DNA of 64,000 bases from Edaphobacter sp. 4G125 (GTDB lineage: Bacteria; Acidobacteriota; Terriglobia; Terriglobales; Acidobacteriaceae): the NCBI RefSeq assembly GCF_014274685.1, contig NZ_CP060393.1, positions 682,001 to 746,000 of the forward strand, given 5' to 3'. Position numbers and translations under genes: made by a program. This document shows, piece by piece, positions 2,585 to 41,687 of the stretch. Below the pieces are notes generated by a model. It was not told the origin of the DNA. It made no database searches and saw only the letters and a program-made list of their open reading frames with translations. How positions within the stretch are numbered: position 1 is the stretch's first letter; every line of letters starts with the position of its first letter.

Positions 2585-2626
2585 AGTATACAGATTGTTG
2601 ACAAGTATTCCATCTCCGTATATTGT
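2585..2626 (+). promoter_or_regulatory. Promoter and candidate GntR operator for the TonB receptor operon
   Basis: A -35 TTGACA at 2598-2603 and a -10 TATTGT at 2621-2626 are 17 bases apart. Just upstream lies agtatacaga (2585-2594) around the palindrome GTATAC, and further GTAT/ATAC words surround it (agtattcc at 2604). Such short AT-rich palindromes are typical of FCD GntR sites. The promoter is direct sequence evidence; the operator is inference. Confidence 0.55.
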
Positions 2627-2708
2627 CGCTCCAATCCCAGTCGTATAGCACCACGTTGTTTCGCAAGAAGCTACACCCTCTTTGTATCGATTGCCCTGGA
2701 GGTTGTTT

Positions 2709-35914: not shown

Positions 35915-36001
35915 GCAGAGAATTCGCTCCTTGATTCCGATTCTGGCGGGCGAAGCCATTATCCCTTGTAACTGGGACTTCCGAGTAAACTCAATATTGC
36001 T

Positions 36002-37351
36002 ATGTCCAGTGAAGTCGCTACGGTACCTGTTGTCACTATCGCCACTATCGGCCAGCATGAGGGCCAGACCATCACCCTGCGAGGATGGCTGTACAACATC
36101 CGTTCCTCGGGCAAGTTGCTCTTCCCCACCTTCCGGGACGGCACGGGAACGATCCAGGGCATCGTACCCAAAGCTGCTGTGCCCGAAGAGGTCTTCAATA
36201 CCCTGAAAGAGCTGCAGCTTGAATCCTCGTTGACCGTCACTGGTAAGGTGCGGGCTGATTCGCGCGCGCCCTCCGGTTACGAGCTCGACGTCGAAGACAT
36301 CCACGTCATCTCACCCGTTTCCGCTGACGATCCCTTTCCGATCACGCTCAAGGAGCACGGCGTCGACTTCCTGATGGAGCATCGTCACCTCTGGCTGCGT
36401 ACTCCGCGCCAGTCCGCCATCCTGCGCGTGCGCGCCACCATCATGCGCGCAGCGGCCGAGTACTTCGACACCAACGGCTTCATCCGCACCGATCCGCCGA
36501 TCCTGACGCCGAATGCATGCGAAGGCACCAGCGAGCTCTTCGAGATGGACTACTTCGACGACGACAAGGCCTACCTCACCCAGTCCGGCCAGCTCTACAT
36601 CGAAGCTACCGCGCTTGCGCTCGGCAAGGTTTATAGCTTTGGCCCCACATTCCGCGCCGAGAAGTCGAAGACCCGCCGCCACCTCACCGAGTTCTGGATG
36701 ATCGAGCCTGAGGTTGCGCACCTCGAACTCAGCGGACTGATGGACCTCGCCGAGAGCTTCATCACGCACATCGTTACTCGTGTGCTCGAATCGCATCGCG
36801 CTGATTTGAAGGTTATCGGCCGCGACGTCTCGAAGCTGGAAGCTATCACTGCGCTCGGGCCGTTTCCGCGTCTGTCGTATGAAGAAGCGCACGCGATGCT
36901 GGAGAAGGCCTACGCCGAGGGCAAGCTGGAGAATCCGCACAAGGACGGCGACGACTTCGGCAGCCCCGACGAGACGTACATCTCAAGCCAATTCGATAAG
37001 CCGGTGATGGTGCATCGCTACCCCGCGGCTATCAAGGCCTTCTACATGCAGCCCGACCCTGCCGACCCCACCAAGGCCCTCTGCCTCGACGTCCTCGCCC
37101 CCGAGGGCTACGGCGAGATCATCGGCGGCTCCCAGCGGGTCGACAACTACGACCTCCTCAAAAGCCGCATCGAAGAACACAATCTCCCACTGGCCGCCTT
37201 CCAGTGGTATCTCGACCTGCGCAAGTACGGCAGCGTCCCCCACGCCGGCTTCGGCATGGGCATCGAACGAGCCGTAGCCTGGATCTGCGGCCTGGACCAT
37301 GTAAGAGAAACGATTCCATTCGCAAGAACATTGAACAGAATTTATCCGTAA
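36002..37351 (+). CDS. asnS: Asparaginyl-tRNA synthetase
   Basis: A 449-residue class IIb aminoacyl-tRNA synthetase. The N-terminal OB fold ([25 protein letters not shown]) binds the anticodon. Catalytic motif 2 is [20 protein letters not shown] and motif 3 is [20 protein letters not shown]. Features of AsnRS rather than AspRS are the short catalytic insertion and the overall length. It charges tRNA-Asn in the cytoplasm. It stands alone, divergent from the PAP2 gene with 87 bases between, and has no evident Shine-Dalgarno sequence. Confidence 0.96.
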
Positions 37352-37678
37352 GGCTTAGGACTTGGTGGATATTTTGAACTCTTTCGTATGCAAGATGGTC
37401 GTCGACAATGGGGGCGCACCATGCATCGCAGATAAGAGGCTTTCCTTGCTATTTGGAAACCGATCATTCGAACCAAGGCTACAAAGGATGACTGGATTTT
37501 TGGTTTCTCTGGAAAGACCCTTGCCAAAAAGGGTATAAATGCGGGAGATGTTCTCACGCGTGGGTACGACGTAACTCACTGTGGGAGAGCCAAAGGTTTG
37601 TCCAAGCTCCAAATCTCCTTATTGGAACAAACCGCGCAAGCTCAAAATCAAGGCATCATAGCCACGATCTTTCAAATT
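37352..37678. other. Intergenic stretch without a recognisable gene
   Basis: Between asnS and the tRNA-like gene. A minus-strand frame of 85 codons is open here (37355-37612) but has no ribosome site and no protein-like character. No repeat or strong hairpin was found. Confidence 0.5.
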
Positions 37679-37770
37679 TGGCGGAGAGAGGGGGATTCAC
37701 ACCCCCGACTGTGTACTAGCACAGTGCCGTGGTTTTGCAGACCACCCCATTTTTACTCTGGCATCTCTCC
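37679..37770 (-). tRNA. Aberrant class-II-shaped tRNA with Cys anticodon (GCA)
   Basis: A 92-base cloverleaf including an encoded CCA. Read on the minus strand: acceptor GGAGAGA/TCTCTCC, discriminator G, D stem CCA/TGG, anticodon stem GTGGT/ACCAC with loop CTGCAAA (anticodon GCA), a 22-base variable region with a six-pair stem (ACTGTG/CACAGT), and T stem GGGGG/CCCCC. U8-A14 and G15-C48 are kept. Oddities: the D loop (GAGTAAAAA) lacks G18G19 and the T loop is TGTGAAT instead of TTCRANY. The long arm, G73 and CCA are serine-like, whereas the anticodon arm is cysteine-like. It may be an allo-tRNA-like or decaying gene. Confidence 0.7.
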
Positions 37771-37780
37771 GTTGAAGGGT

Positions 37781-37820
37781 GCAGGCAGGGAACCCGCCTC
37801 AGAAACGACTCCCTGCCTGC
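37781..37820 (-). terminator. Hairpin between the small unknown gene and the tRNA
   Basis: Perfect 11-base arms GCAGGCAGGGA and TCCCTGCCTGC with an 18-base loop. It lies 38 bases after the stop of the gene at 37859 and just upstream of the tRNA, so it may end that message. There is no T tract. Confidence 0.45.
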
Positions 37821-37858
37821 GCTGCTACACCGGAATATCAAACCCTCCCCGTAAAACT

Positions 37859-38302
37859 CTAAAAAGGTATGTCGTCAGATTTTTCAATCCAGCGGTAAAA
37901 CACTTTTCCGTCCTCTTCTTTTTCGCGAAGGATTTCTGGCGTACTGCTGCCCGCCAAACGAGCAAGTATCTTGTAAATAGAAGCCATAGGCGCAGACAAC
38001 GTACTCATATCGAAGCCTTTTTCGCGCAGCTCGTCATGCACATCCTTGGGAGCCATTCGCTCCTTCGATTTCTCCATCACCCATCGAATTGCGTCTGTAA
38101 TCCCCAAGGTTGCGAGATTCTCTTTTGCAGGAACACCTGCAAGCGGAGCGAGATGGCTCATGATTTCGTTGAGATGCCCGATCTGGGTGTTTATATCGCT
38201 GAGCTCGGCCTCAAGAGTCGCTCTGCGATCCGTGAGCTCCACCTTCTTCATGAACACATTTTTCCAAGTTTCGGCGTAATCAATGTCAGTCGTATCTGCC
38301 AT
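37859..38302 (-). CDS. Small coiled-coil plus winged-helix protein, unknown function
   Basis: A 147-residue protein starting MADTTDIDYAETWKNVFMKK. Residues 20-55 form a heptad-like coiled coil (VELTDRRATLEAELSDINTQ); residues 75-147 look like a winged helix (ITDAIRWVMEKSKERMAPKDV ... MASIYKILARL ... GKVFYRWIEK), reminiscent of HARE-HTH or restriction-system specificity domains. It may bind DNA, but I do not recognise a family. The gene stands alone next to the tRNA and an AT-rich, repeat-bearing region. An in-frame upstream ATG (38377) is less likely. Confidence 0.65.
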   Translation of the reverse strand: MADTTDIDYAETWKNVFMKKVELTDRRATLEAELSDINTQIGHLNEIMSHLAPLAGVPAKENLATLGITDAIRWVMEKSKERMAPKDVHDELREKGFDMSTLSAPMASIYKILARLAGSSTPEILREKEEDGKVFYRWIEKSDDIPF

Positions 38303-38557
38303 GCCTAGGAGAATACACATGTCAGTAGACACTGTAAAGACAAATGCGATTAAGCATCTCGTGAAGGCCATAGACATGACTTGGCAGCGTCTAATGATAG
38401 ACGCCGAATAAGATCTCCAATCACGCAGATAGATATCTAACCGACTTCGTAAGCCTAGTTATTTCTCAAATAAGTACTAGACAGTCAAATCCTCGTCCCC
38501 AAGACTATGAGGTAGACAATGTAGATTTCTTGGGCAGAAGAATGGATATTTGGGCAT

Positions 38558-38695
38558 GGGGGAGATATCGGGCAAAGCCACATGAATATCGGTAAGCTGT
38601 TTGTTTGCAATATTTTAAAGATAAGCCATTTATTTTGTATATTTTGCGGAAAAAAAGGGAGATCGAACGTGAATACCGTTCTCGGCACAGACAGG
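38558..38695 (+). repeat. Direct repeat copy A
   Basis: This AT-rich segment is about three-quarters identical to 39361-39515: both have tgggggaga, then catg...atcggtaag, then caatatttt, an AT-rich core, atattttgc, cgtgaatacc or cgtgaaatacc, and end in tggcacag or cggcacag. The two copies are in the same orientation about 800 bases apart and enclose a broken gene. Confidence 0.65.
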
Positions 38696-38805
38696 CGGGG
38701 TGCCCCACATCTAACCAAACCTACACAATCGGGTGCCCCATCTTCGGCGCCAACGCCGGCTAAGGTGGGTATTCGCGTGAAAGCGCAAACCGCCTTCAGC
38801 CCCCA

Positions 38806-39158
38806 CTAAAAACTAGCCCGCATCTCAACCCGTTCGGCCACCGGCTCCACAATCTTCTCTCGTCCATGCCCCGGATTGATCTCCTTTCGCGTTCTGAGAG
38901 CACCCACTCGCACCAGCTTCAGCACATCCTGCCGCACCGACTTCGGATCGCGCTTCAGGACTGTAGCTAATCCCGTAACGGACAAAGCCTGCTTCCTCGG
39001 AAGCGTTCGACCGTCAGCACCTTTCTCATCTCCAGCGCCGACTCGAAGTTGATCGTCTTCTCCGCAACAACCTTTTCCCCGCGTGCAAGCTTTCCCGCAC
39101 GCTCCTGCGCACGCTTCGCTTACCCCTCAAATCCATCGGTCCGCACCGACAATTTCAT
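38806..39158 (-). pseudogene. Decayed DNA-binding (HVO_A0114-like winged-helix) protein
   Basis: Read on the minus strand from the ATG at 39158, codon 13 is a TAA (39120-39122). The same frame goes on as AKRAQERAGKLARGEKVV...FESALEMRKVL, then loses register near 38990-39005; another frame resumes as ALSVTGLATVLKRDPKSVRQ DVLKLVRVGALRTR and ends ERVEMRASF at the stop 38806. The pieces join into one winged-helix regulator of the type found next to toxin genes. One nonsense and one frameshift mutation make it inactive. No toxin partner remains. It lies between two direct repeats. Confidence 0.7.
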
Positions 39159-39360
39159 GGCCGCTTCTCCAAGAGGAACGCGAGAATATCACAGCACGGG
39201 CATAACATGACCCACCTGCTCAACCCGCCGCGACCAAATTGTTGTCAAGCCCCCGCAAATTCAATCATCCGAATAAAGCCCTCTAAATCAAGCACTTGAA
39301 CAATAAAATAAAGGCTTCAAAACCGACGATGAGTTTCCACCAATTCTCTAAACTTAAAAC

Positions 39361-39515
39361 TGGGGGAGAACTGCCAAACGTCGCATTCAAAGGACATGCA
39401 GAATCGGTAAGTCGTTTATTTACAATATTTTACAAATAAACCATTTGTTTTGAATATTTTGCAGCAAAACAGGGGGAGGGGGTCACACGTGAAATACCAT
39501 TCTTGGCACAGCCAG
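39361..39515 (+). repeat. Direct repeat copy B
   Basis: Second copy of the element at 38558-38695. This copy holds a perfect eight-base inverted repeat, GTTTATTT and AAATAAAC around a 12-base spacer (39414-39441 region), that is degraded in copy A. It ends about 55 bases before the DUF1080 start and may contain its promoter. Confidence 0.65.
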
Positions 39516-39569
39516 CAACCACACACACGCACAAACGTAAGCCGCTCTCACGCGTTACCATTAGTCCCC

Positions 39570-40310
39570 ATGCGCACCCGAACCCTCCTAGCCCTCACTC
39601 TGGCCGCCACCCTCCCTGCCATCGCGCAAGCCCCCAACACCCTCACCGCAGCCGAAAAGGCCCAGGGCTGGCATCTCCTCTTTGATGGCAAGACCTCTAA
39701 CGGCTGGCGCGGCGACCACAGCCCCACCTTCCCCTCCACCGGTTGGGAGGTCAAGGATGGCATGATCTCCGTCACCGAGCATGGCGGCGAAGAGGGCGGC
39801 AACGCCGGGGACATCATCACCACACGCAAGTACGCCAACTTCGAGCTGCTCGTCGACTTCCGCATCACCTCCGGAGCCAACAGCGGCATCAAGTACTTCG
39901 TCGACCCTGACCTCAACAAAGGCCCCGGTTCGGCCATCGGCTTCGAGTACCAGATCCTCGACGACGCCGTGCACCCCGACGCGAAGAAGGGCGTCAACGG
40001 CGACCGCACCCTCGCCTCGCTCTACGACATGATTCCCGCCGCGGCCAACAAGCCCGTCAAGCCCATCGGCGAGTGGAACACCGCGCGCATCGTCGTGCGC
40101 GGAGCCCACGGCGAGCACTGGCTCAACGGCGTGAAGGTCGTCGAGTACGAACGCTTCACCCCCGAGTTCCGCAAGCTCGTCGCCGACAGCAAATATCACG
40201 TCTGGCCCGGCTTCGGCGAGAAGCATGATGGCTATATTCTGCTGCAAGACCACGGCTTTCCCGTCTCCTTTCGGAATATCAAGATTCGCGAGCTTCCTCC
40301 AACCCCATAA
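39570..40310 (+). CDS. DUF1080 (3-keto-disaccharide hydrolase-like) exported protein
   Basis: A 246-residue exported beta-sandwich protein. The signal peptide [20 protein letters not shown] starts at the ATG at 39570; the longer upstream frame lies in the repeat. The DUF1080 hallmarks are [14 protein letters not shown], the [20 protein letters not shown] block and NSGIKYFV. Characterised members of the family act on 3-keto-glycosides or resemble concanavalin-type glucanases. It stands alone after the repeat region. GC content and codon use are clearly higher than in the AT-rich repeats before it. Confidence 0.88.
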
Positions 40311-40403
40311 GCCTTTCTTCATCTTCTGGGACACTTGGCTGGTATAAGCTAACGTCGCCGACACGGCGCAAGACCAAACTGCTCCCTCTGAAAGGCACGC
40401 ATC

Positions 40404-41687
40404 ATGCCGACTCCGCAGAAGAGCCTCCCCGCCAAGAAGCAACCGAAGCCTCCAACCAAGCCGAAGCCCGGGAACCCGAAGACTCCCCCAAGTCTTCCAA
40501 AGACAAGCAATCCGATCTTTGGCCAGCCTGCGCCATCACCAGATCCGACTGGATTTAAAAATCCTGTCACCGACCAGAAGGATGTCGGGCTACAGGTTGT
40601 CGAAGCTGTTCCTCAACCGGTCAACGGTGCCGTCGAGCCTGTCCTGACACTGGCGCAAGTCTACGGCTCCCAGGGAACAACGATTGTCTCGAACATCCAG
40701 AAGGCCGGCCAGATCGTCTTCCACTCAGTGGGCGACACCGGCAGCGCCAAAGGCCCCGCCACCCAGTCGCTTGTAGCAGATAAGATGGTGACGGACTTCA
40801 GCGAGACCAACTCCGCCGATGTTCCCTCGTTCTTCTTCCATCTCGGCGATCTCGTCTATTACTTCGGGGAATCCAGCTACTACTACGATCAATTCTTCGA
40901 GCCCTACCGACTCTATCCCGCGCCTATCGTCGCAATCCCCGGCAATCACGATGGCGTCGTTTACGCTACTGATCCCGAAGCCACACTTACAGCCTTTCTA
41001 CGCAACTTTTGTGCGCCGTCGTTTGGGCTTTCTCCCGATGCAGGTGGCCTGTTACGCAGCACCATGATCCAACCCGGGGTGTACTTCACCTTTGACTGCC
41101 CCTTCGTTCGCATTCTGGGTCTCTACAGCAATGTTCTGGAAGACCCAGGCGTCATCTCCGACCAGAGCGGCACTTATAAGACGTTGGATTCGCGGCAGGT
41201 TGACTTCCTCACCGCCGCTCTCAAGCGCGTGAAGTCCGACAACTTCACCGGCGCCGTTATTATCGCCGTGCATCATCCTCCGTTTACGGGCGGCTCCGTG
41301 CACGGAGGAAGCCCGCAGATGCTCGCTGACATCGACTCAGCCTGCAAGAGCGCAGGTGTATGGCCGCACGCCGTCTTCTCCGGCCATGCGCACAACTACC
41401 AGCGCTTCACCAGGACGATTAACAACCTGCAGATTCCTTTCCTTGTCGCGGGCAGCGGAGGACATTCGCCGCTCTCCAACATGCGCTCCGCCTATCGCAC
41501 TCCCTACAAGATCGACAACACGTTGACGCTTGAGAACTACAACACCATCGAATACGGTTACATGCGCGTTGTCGTCAATGCGACGACACTTCGTATAGAG
41601 TTCCACACAGCCGCCAGCACTGGAGTCGGCAAGACTCCTATTGATTCAGTCTCGATCGATCTCGCAACGCACATCATCGCCGGCTAA
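40404..41687 (+). CDS. Calcineurin-like metallophosphoesterase
   Basis: A 427-residue phosphoesterase. A lysine/proline-rich start of about 50 residues precedes the metal motifs: GDTGSA, HLGDLVYY, IPGNHDGV, VHHPPFTGG and SGHAHNYQRF, the full set of the purple-acid-phosphatase-like fold. There is no clear signal peptide, although many relatives are exported. AAAGG lies about ten bases before the ATG. Substrate unknown. The gap to the DUF1080 gene is 93 bases, so the two may share a transcript. Confidence 0.9.
   Translation: MPTPQKSLPAKKQPKPPTKPKPGNPKTPPSLPKTSNPIFGQPAPSPDPTGFKNPVTDQKDVGLQVVEAVPQPVNGAVEPVLTLAQVYGSQGTTIVSNIQKAGQIVFHSVGDTGSAKGPATQSLVADKMVTDFSETNSADVPSFFFHLGDLVYYFGESSYYYDQFFEPYRLYPAPIVAIPGNHDGVVYATDPEATLTAFLRNFCAPSFGLSPDAGGLLRSTMIQPGVYFTFDCPFVRILGLYSNVLEDPGVISDQSGTYKTLDSRQVDFLTAALKRVKSDNFTGAVIIAVHHPPFTGGSVHGGSPQMLADIDSACKSAGVWPHAVFSGHAHNYQRFTRTINNLQIPFLVAGSGGHSPLSNMRSAYRTPYKIDNTLTLENYNTIEYGYMRVVVNATTLRIEFHTAASTGVGKTPIDSVSIDLATHIIAG

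Follow-up and report, generated by a model that had tools for sequence, protein, structure and literature searches.

We propose a putative origin for an unusual tRNA gene in Edaphobacter sp. 4G125. Within the 64,000-nucleotide stretch analysed here (the window; contig NZ_CP060393.1), the gene at 37679–37770 is probably the cargo of a transposon, of which a degenerate and immobile copy persists downstream of asnS. Taken jointly with the serine-missense function that we propose for the tRNA, this reading has a probability of about 0.6. The sequence support for the cassette origin consists of an extra segment of DNA, an intact gene for a protein with an SSB-like tip, a broken zinc-ribbon gene, one likely terminal repeat and the occurrence of the same cassette in bounded elements elsewhere. 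We read the locus as the relic of a transposon because another genome of the class (G367) carries the same gene order, anticodon and tRNA body type in an element with ends, a 9-bp duplication and a transposase. Compared with the initial annotation, what is new is that the tRNA probably originated as cargo of a transposon, next to a conserved protein with an SSB tip.

The tRNA gene is real and looks intact. ARAGORN called a tRNA-Cys(gca) at exactly 37679–37770 on the minus strand, the sole tRNA that it reported in the window, with the anticodon GCA at 37736–37738. The serine-type class-II body and complete cloverleaf originally described were recovered: the stems have 7, 3, 5, 6 (variable arm) and 5 bp, 26 of 26 pairs are Watson-Crick, and the long variable arm is accompanied by G73, an encoded CCA and an anticodon loop that retains U33 and A37. 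The fold beat those of 198 of 200 dinucleotide shuffles (z −3.1). By position numbers that we assigned by hand, the D loop (GAGTAAAAA) carries A18A19 instead of G18G19 and the T loop (TGTGAAT) carries G55 and U56 instead of T55C56, as the annotation had read them; the change at 19-56 leaves an A-U pair possible. All four bases of the reported U8-A14 and G15-C48 contacts are also present. Rfam returned no family at the gathering score across the whole window, and the best match of the tRNA, to tRNA-Sec (RF01852), reached 32.4 bits, below the cut-off of 47.

According to Table 1 of PMC9976931, the bacterial serine determinants are G73, C72, G2-C71, R4-Y69, C11-G24, a large variable region and G30-C40, and 7 of 7 are found in the window tRNA with the hand-assigned positions. 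Of the cysteine determinants named in that source, GCA and G2-C71 are present, with G73 and A3-U70 standing in place of U73 and C3-G70. The molecule is not a tRNA-Cys in the sense of U73 with GCA, and the predicted breach of the U73 rule is borne out; nor does it have a serine anticodon, as GCA reads UGC and UGU. SerRS does not read the anticodon. From these features, we predict a seryl acceptor that would decode the Cys codons UGC and UGU.

Acidobacterial allo-tRNAs had been named as the nearest known kind, and we agree. They are reported to have 8/4 or 9/3 acceptor branches and to be able to insert serine in E. coli (PMC7609411, on Mukai et al. 2017). Similar to the allo-tRNAs described there, the window tRNA joins serine determinants and a long variable arm to a non-serine anticodon in the Acidobacteria. 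However, its branch is 7/5 rather than the 12 bp of 8/4 or 9/3, both of its loops are altered, and in the present case we can name the element, its ends and a partner protein. The window tRNA is thus allo-tRNA-like, but it is no allo-tRNA by the acceptor branch. The selC* tRNA-Cys of the same source also has a GCA anticodon and a long variable arm, but it carries U73 and a bulged 8/4 branch, whereas the window tRNA has G73 and 7/5.

The host genome (4.25 Mb, single contig) has 47 RF00005 matches, and the window tRNA lies outside them. The initial annotation would have been refuted had the window gene been the sole tRNA-Cys of the genome; a check for others found two ordinary tRNA-Cys(gca) genes with U73, so this refuting condition does not hold. 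The highest overall similarity to the window tRNA (72%) is that of the host tRNA-Ser(gct), whose acceptor and T stems are identical to those of the window tRNA; the other arms depart from it with pairing kept. Searching 100 genomes, its own included, with the 89-nt tRNA DNA returned, beyond itself, only tRNA-Ser ends at 3 places, and in 62 genus genomes the DNA at 37352–38420 matched, apart from itself, tRNA-Ser ends at three sites (its own genome, G038 and G057). A class-II Cys pattern occurred in one of the 62 genus genomes, that of the window. Across the class, this Ser-acceptor/Cys-anticodon pattern matched 17 of 399 genomes, and among the 18 places ARAGORN saw a tRNA only in the window and G367. 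The class-II Cys pattern also matched 96 viral stretches, with no tRNA at the match in the 80 loci checked (L103–L182). Separately, a further tRNA-Glu(ttc) (L042, G000:C1:2762096-2762170) differs from the genome's other tRNA-Glu genes in a D loop that is rich in C and unusually long.

The surroundings of the tRNA gene point to an insertion. Blastn of the corresponding locus of the congener G046 (L074) against the window indicated that a segment of about 1.45 kb (37353–38805) is missing there, because asnS in G046 is followed by 14 nt and then by DNA resembling window 38806. In G036, different DNA lies between asnS and the homolog of 38761–39159. Within the segment, a frameshifted zinc-ribbon remnant occupies 37525–37658 on the plus strand, in two frames (37525–37578 and 37578–37658; tblastn with the intact ORF of the G367 locus, L256, E 9.5e-14). 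The tRNA lies downstream of, and on the same strand as, an intact winged-helix protein gene of 147 aa (37859–38302, minus strand) that ends KSDDIPF; its start codon was picked by homology, and the open frame reaches 38377. Folding of the spacer revealed a hairpin between the stop codon of this gene and the tRNA (37781–37820, minus strand). A 30-aa ORF at 38319–38411 (plus strand) is probably a truncated form of the small coiled-coil ORF of related elements; its match to the small ORF of L202 is weak (E 0.017). The motif TTGGGCAG (38530–38537, plus strand) also occurs near both ends of the G367 element, and a probable right element end, GGGCAAAGCCAC (38570–38581, plus strand), is identical to the right end of that element. 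A left end and a target duplication were not found; of the ends of the G367 SWIM/DDE type, the window shows a probable right one, by a post hoc end search. Nor was a transposase of its own recognized at 36000–41000 with the four transposases tested (best E 0.095). As no transposase is recognisable, the left end is missing and two small ORFs are broken, the intact state of the window tRNA may be luck.

Two further observations concern the neighbouring DNA. A 75-nt direct repeat (38588–38662 and 39403–39477, 83% identical) has its first copy a few bases past the right element end; when the genome was searched with that copy, the matches listed included a single further place, a partial one at 1091374, and not the second copy. 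In about two dozen of the 62 genus genomes (e.g., G041, G039 and G023), the AsnRS match is split near residue 285 into two pieces, both of them in a single longer open frame, which suggests a lineage-specific insertion in AsnRS.

The element of G367 provides the closest comparison. It contains, in order, a SWIM/DDE transposase, a zinc-ribbon ORF, a Ser-type GCA tRNA, a second odd tRNA, a winged-helix protein and a small ORF. Its boundaries are GGCTTTGCCCA repeats (L256 positions 2004 and 4991), with a target duplication of 9 bp, ACGAAGTGT. Its winged-helix protein ends DEDIPF and is 32% identical to that of the window. By our reading, its Ser-type tRNA has an 8/4 acceptor branch, together with an ordinary T loop (TTCGACT). 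The second odd tRNA (L256 4087–4163, minus strand; 45.8 bits to RF00005) has the anticodon loop CUUUAAA and, with the anticodon UUA, would read the stop codon UAA. The ends of L256 are a post hoc finding, because they were found only after the shared motif had been noticed; a strict end search recovered ends for L258 and L259 and none for L256, L261, the window or L264. The last of these, in G385, holds at 2611–2687 (minus strand) a class-I tRNA with C73 and G at −1, which are His marks, and the Thr anticodon UGU, beside a cassette protein and an IS1-like transposase.

Related cassettes also occur in IS1595-family (ISXO2-like) elements. The elements of the congeners G026 and G049 (2,065 and 2,059 bp) have inverted repeats alike at 17 of 20 and 20 of 20 bases and 8-bp target duplications (GTTTAGTT and AACTCTTT, respectively), and each contains a transposase, a small coil ORF, a winged-helix protein and a class-II tRNA of 88 nt, which has A73 and the anticodon UGC. 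The transposase of G026, in which the domain was tested, is a DDE_Tnp_IS1595. These elements resemble the IS1595 family in transposase, terminal repeats and duplications but differ from it in carrying the tRNA and SSB-tip winged-helix genes as passengers; the window copy, which lacks a transposase, is nearer to the G367 SWIM/DDE type. Similar UGC tRNAs adjoin the protein in G304, G126 and one viral contig. By the table of PMC9976931, the UGC tRNAs show the Leu features A73, A20a and a long arm but not the G3-U70 pair of Ala. Among the four distinct Leu-type sequences, 97.9% of cells were paired and 9 of 24 pairs had changed on both sides; the observed value was reached by none of 500 shuffles in four of five measures and by 9 of 500 in the fifth. 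The G026 and G049 tRNAs are identical (88/88) in elements that are 85.7% identical, which is a weak sign of selection because a stretch elsewhere in the element reaches 87/88. A Leu-type D-arm pattern occurred in 20 of 399 genomes, where 4 of 20 places were tRNAs, all already known.

These relatives bear on the loops of the window tRNA. The initial annotation had suggested co-change of 18/55 and 19/56, which does not hold as a general rule: G367 has an ordinary T loop, and in all four Leu-type tRNAs the D loop retains GG and the one difference is at 55 (C55 instead of T55). As far as these sequences go, the loop rewiring is particular to the window copy.

The 147-aa protein had 86 database matches, itself included, and its organism-named homologs belong to Terracidiphilus or other Terriglobia. 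Among the C-termini of the 86 proteins, PF ends 82, IPF 72 and [DEN][DEN]IPF 69. The three host SSBs end DDDVPF, GITDDDIPF and DEDIPF; the cassette protein of G026 ends GITDDDIPF, the same as the host SSB L278. In PMC5872125, DDDIPF is given as the SSB tip. The window protein resembles bacterial SSB in its DDIPF end but differs in its modelled fold, which has a long helix and a winged helix and no OB fold. The AlphaFold2 model (68 rows, mean pLDDT 90.5) places the helix at residues 9–55, followed by a winged-helix-like part, and Foldseek returned nothing at E 0.001, the best matches being Fur-type regulators (1.4e-3). The protein is present in 5 of 62 genus genomes and in 41 of 399 class genomes (54 among the matches listed). 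No cassette protein was found in plasmids and phages at E 1e-3. Viral contigs gave two loci, and a second scan with closer alignment gave one, already known. A search of genome contigs gave one locus, L201 (CAJCHZ010000060.1), labelled Betaproteobacteria; the label is probably a binning error because L201 is identical over 4530 bases to a contig (L257) of G304, which belongs to the class of the window.

Pairing of protein and tRNA was assessed at 32 distinct protein loci, comprising 30 of the 54 class matches listed and two viral loci. A tRNA follows within 160 nt on the same strand in nine (the window, L204, and L202, L205, L206, L208, L217, L219, L220 and L230), against an expectation of about 0.0009 per locus; ARAGORN found no tRNA at the downstream place in the other 23. 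Body and anticodon clash in seven of the nine, as Ser/Cys in two loci and Leu/Ala in five (four distinct sequences). The tRNA of L208, with C73, G at −1 and anticodon UGU, was kept out of these seven and is, less certainly, a His/Thr mismatch; in L220, body and anticodon both fit Cys, and this tRNA gene may be an ordinary one. A tRNA beside L226 was left out of the count, as it lies upstream of the protein on the other strand, and at L203 the protein occurs with an IS1-like transposase and without a tRNA. An SSB-like tip, counting the variants DDENPF and DDDILF as two of six, goes with a tRNA at 6 of 6 loci, compared with 3 of 26 others (Fisher 9e-5, for groups defined once the data had been seen). 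A hairpin separates protein and tRNA in eight of the nine pairs; in L217 and L219, it is followed by a T run and may end transcription. Our own strict cloverleaf scan of the 800 nt downstream of the protein at 33 loci, the window gene included, found eight structures, missing two ARAGORN-visible tRNAs. The same scan was empty on the opposite strand, upstream and in five shuffles per stretch. Rfam, run on 20 loci for cassette tRNAs missed by ARAGORN, gave one tRNA, that of L220, already known.

Under the transposon-cargo reading, the window tRNA would be made with or behind the winged-helix message and charged with serine by SerRS, and serine would be delivered at UGC and UGU codons at a low level, in competition with the two ordinary tRNA-Cys. 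More speculatively, the winged-helix protein might bind element DNA while its SSB-like tail contacts proteins of host replication or repair. The mismatched tRNA might be a host-affecting passenger, through mistranslation or as a tRNA-pool decoy, that favours persistence of the element. We also considered whether the elements recode their own genes and found no support for this: missense decoding is not needed for them because TGC and GCA are used at ordinary positions in the sampled element genes.

The main rival holds that the tRNA worked in a mobile element and is now a pseudogene, with the loss of G18G19 and T55C56 as the first stage of decay. We regard this as somewhat improbable, yet decay is a live rival because the window copy is degenerate and the loop changes are not common to the G367 tRNA, whose T loop is normal. 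The frameshifted zinc ribbon, the short coil ORF, the missing transposase and end, and the restriction of the class-II Cys pattern in the genus to the window's own genome all fit such decay, and the tRNA may be on its way out. However, every stem pair is still Watson-Crick, the adjoining protein ORF is uninterrupted and still has its tip, none of the listed serine determinants has been lost and 19-56 has changed to another pair.

The altered elbow also raises the idea of an RNA that stays off the ribosome and acts in regulation, e.g., bound by the winged-helix protein; the constant place behind that gene and the altered position 55 in the Leu-type relatives agree with it. We consider this unlikely, as the window tRNA retains its CCA, serine determinants and U33/A37 anticodon loop, GG is conserved in the D loop of the relatives, the G367 T loop is normal, and odd-structured allo-tRNAs can insert serine in E. 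coli according to PMC7609411. An ordinary host gene unrelated to any element, either a tRNA-Ser with a changed anticodon or a third tRNA-Cys, would account for the acceptor and T stems shared with tRNA-Ser(gct). This explanation was already disfavoured and is very improbable, since the other arms are unlike tRNA-Ser(gct) with pairing kept, the gene lies inside the segment missing in G046, and G367 has the same cassette with a Ser-type GCA tRNA.

Beyond the window, we suggest, with more doubt than confidence, a recurrent transposon cassette in soil Acidobacteria that combines an SSB-tail-mimicking DNA-binding protein with a tRNA of clashing charging identity and anticodon (Ser/Cys, Leu/Ala and perhaps His/Thr), so that mobile elements spread missense tRNAs. 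Among the titles listed in our literature search, which covered few subscription papers, none concerned transposons carrying such tRNA genes; on the genomic home of the odd acidobacterial allo-tRNAs, PMC7609411, so far as it covers the matter, offers only one pseudogene, which overlaps a gene related to transposons. A tRNA and an SSB-tip protein recurring together in bounded elements would give allo-tRNAs a genomic home and a partner protein, and through them the spread of missense tRNAs by transposons would become directly testable. If the proposal is true, mobile elements spread and maintain missense tRNAs that alter host decoding, as offensive, addictive or stress-adaptive cargo.
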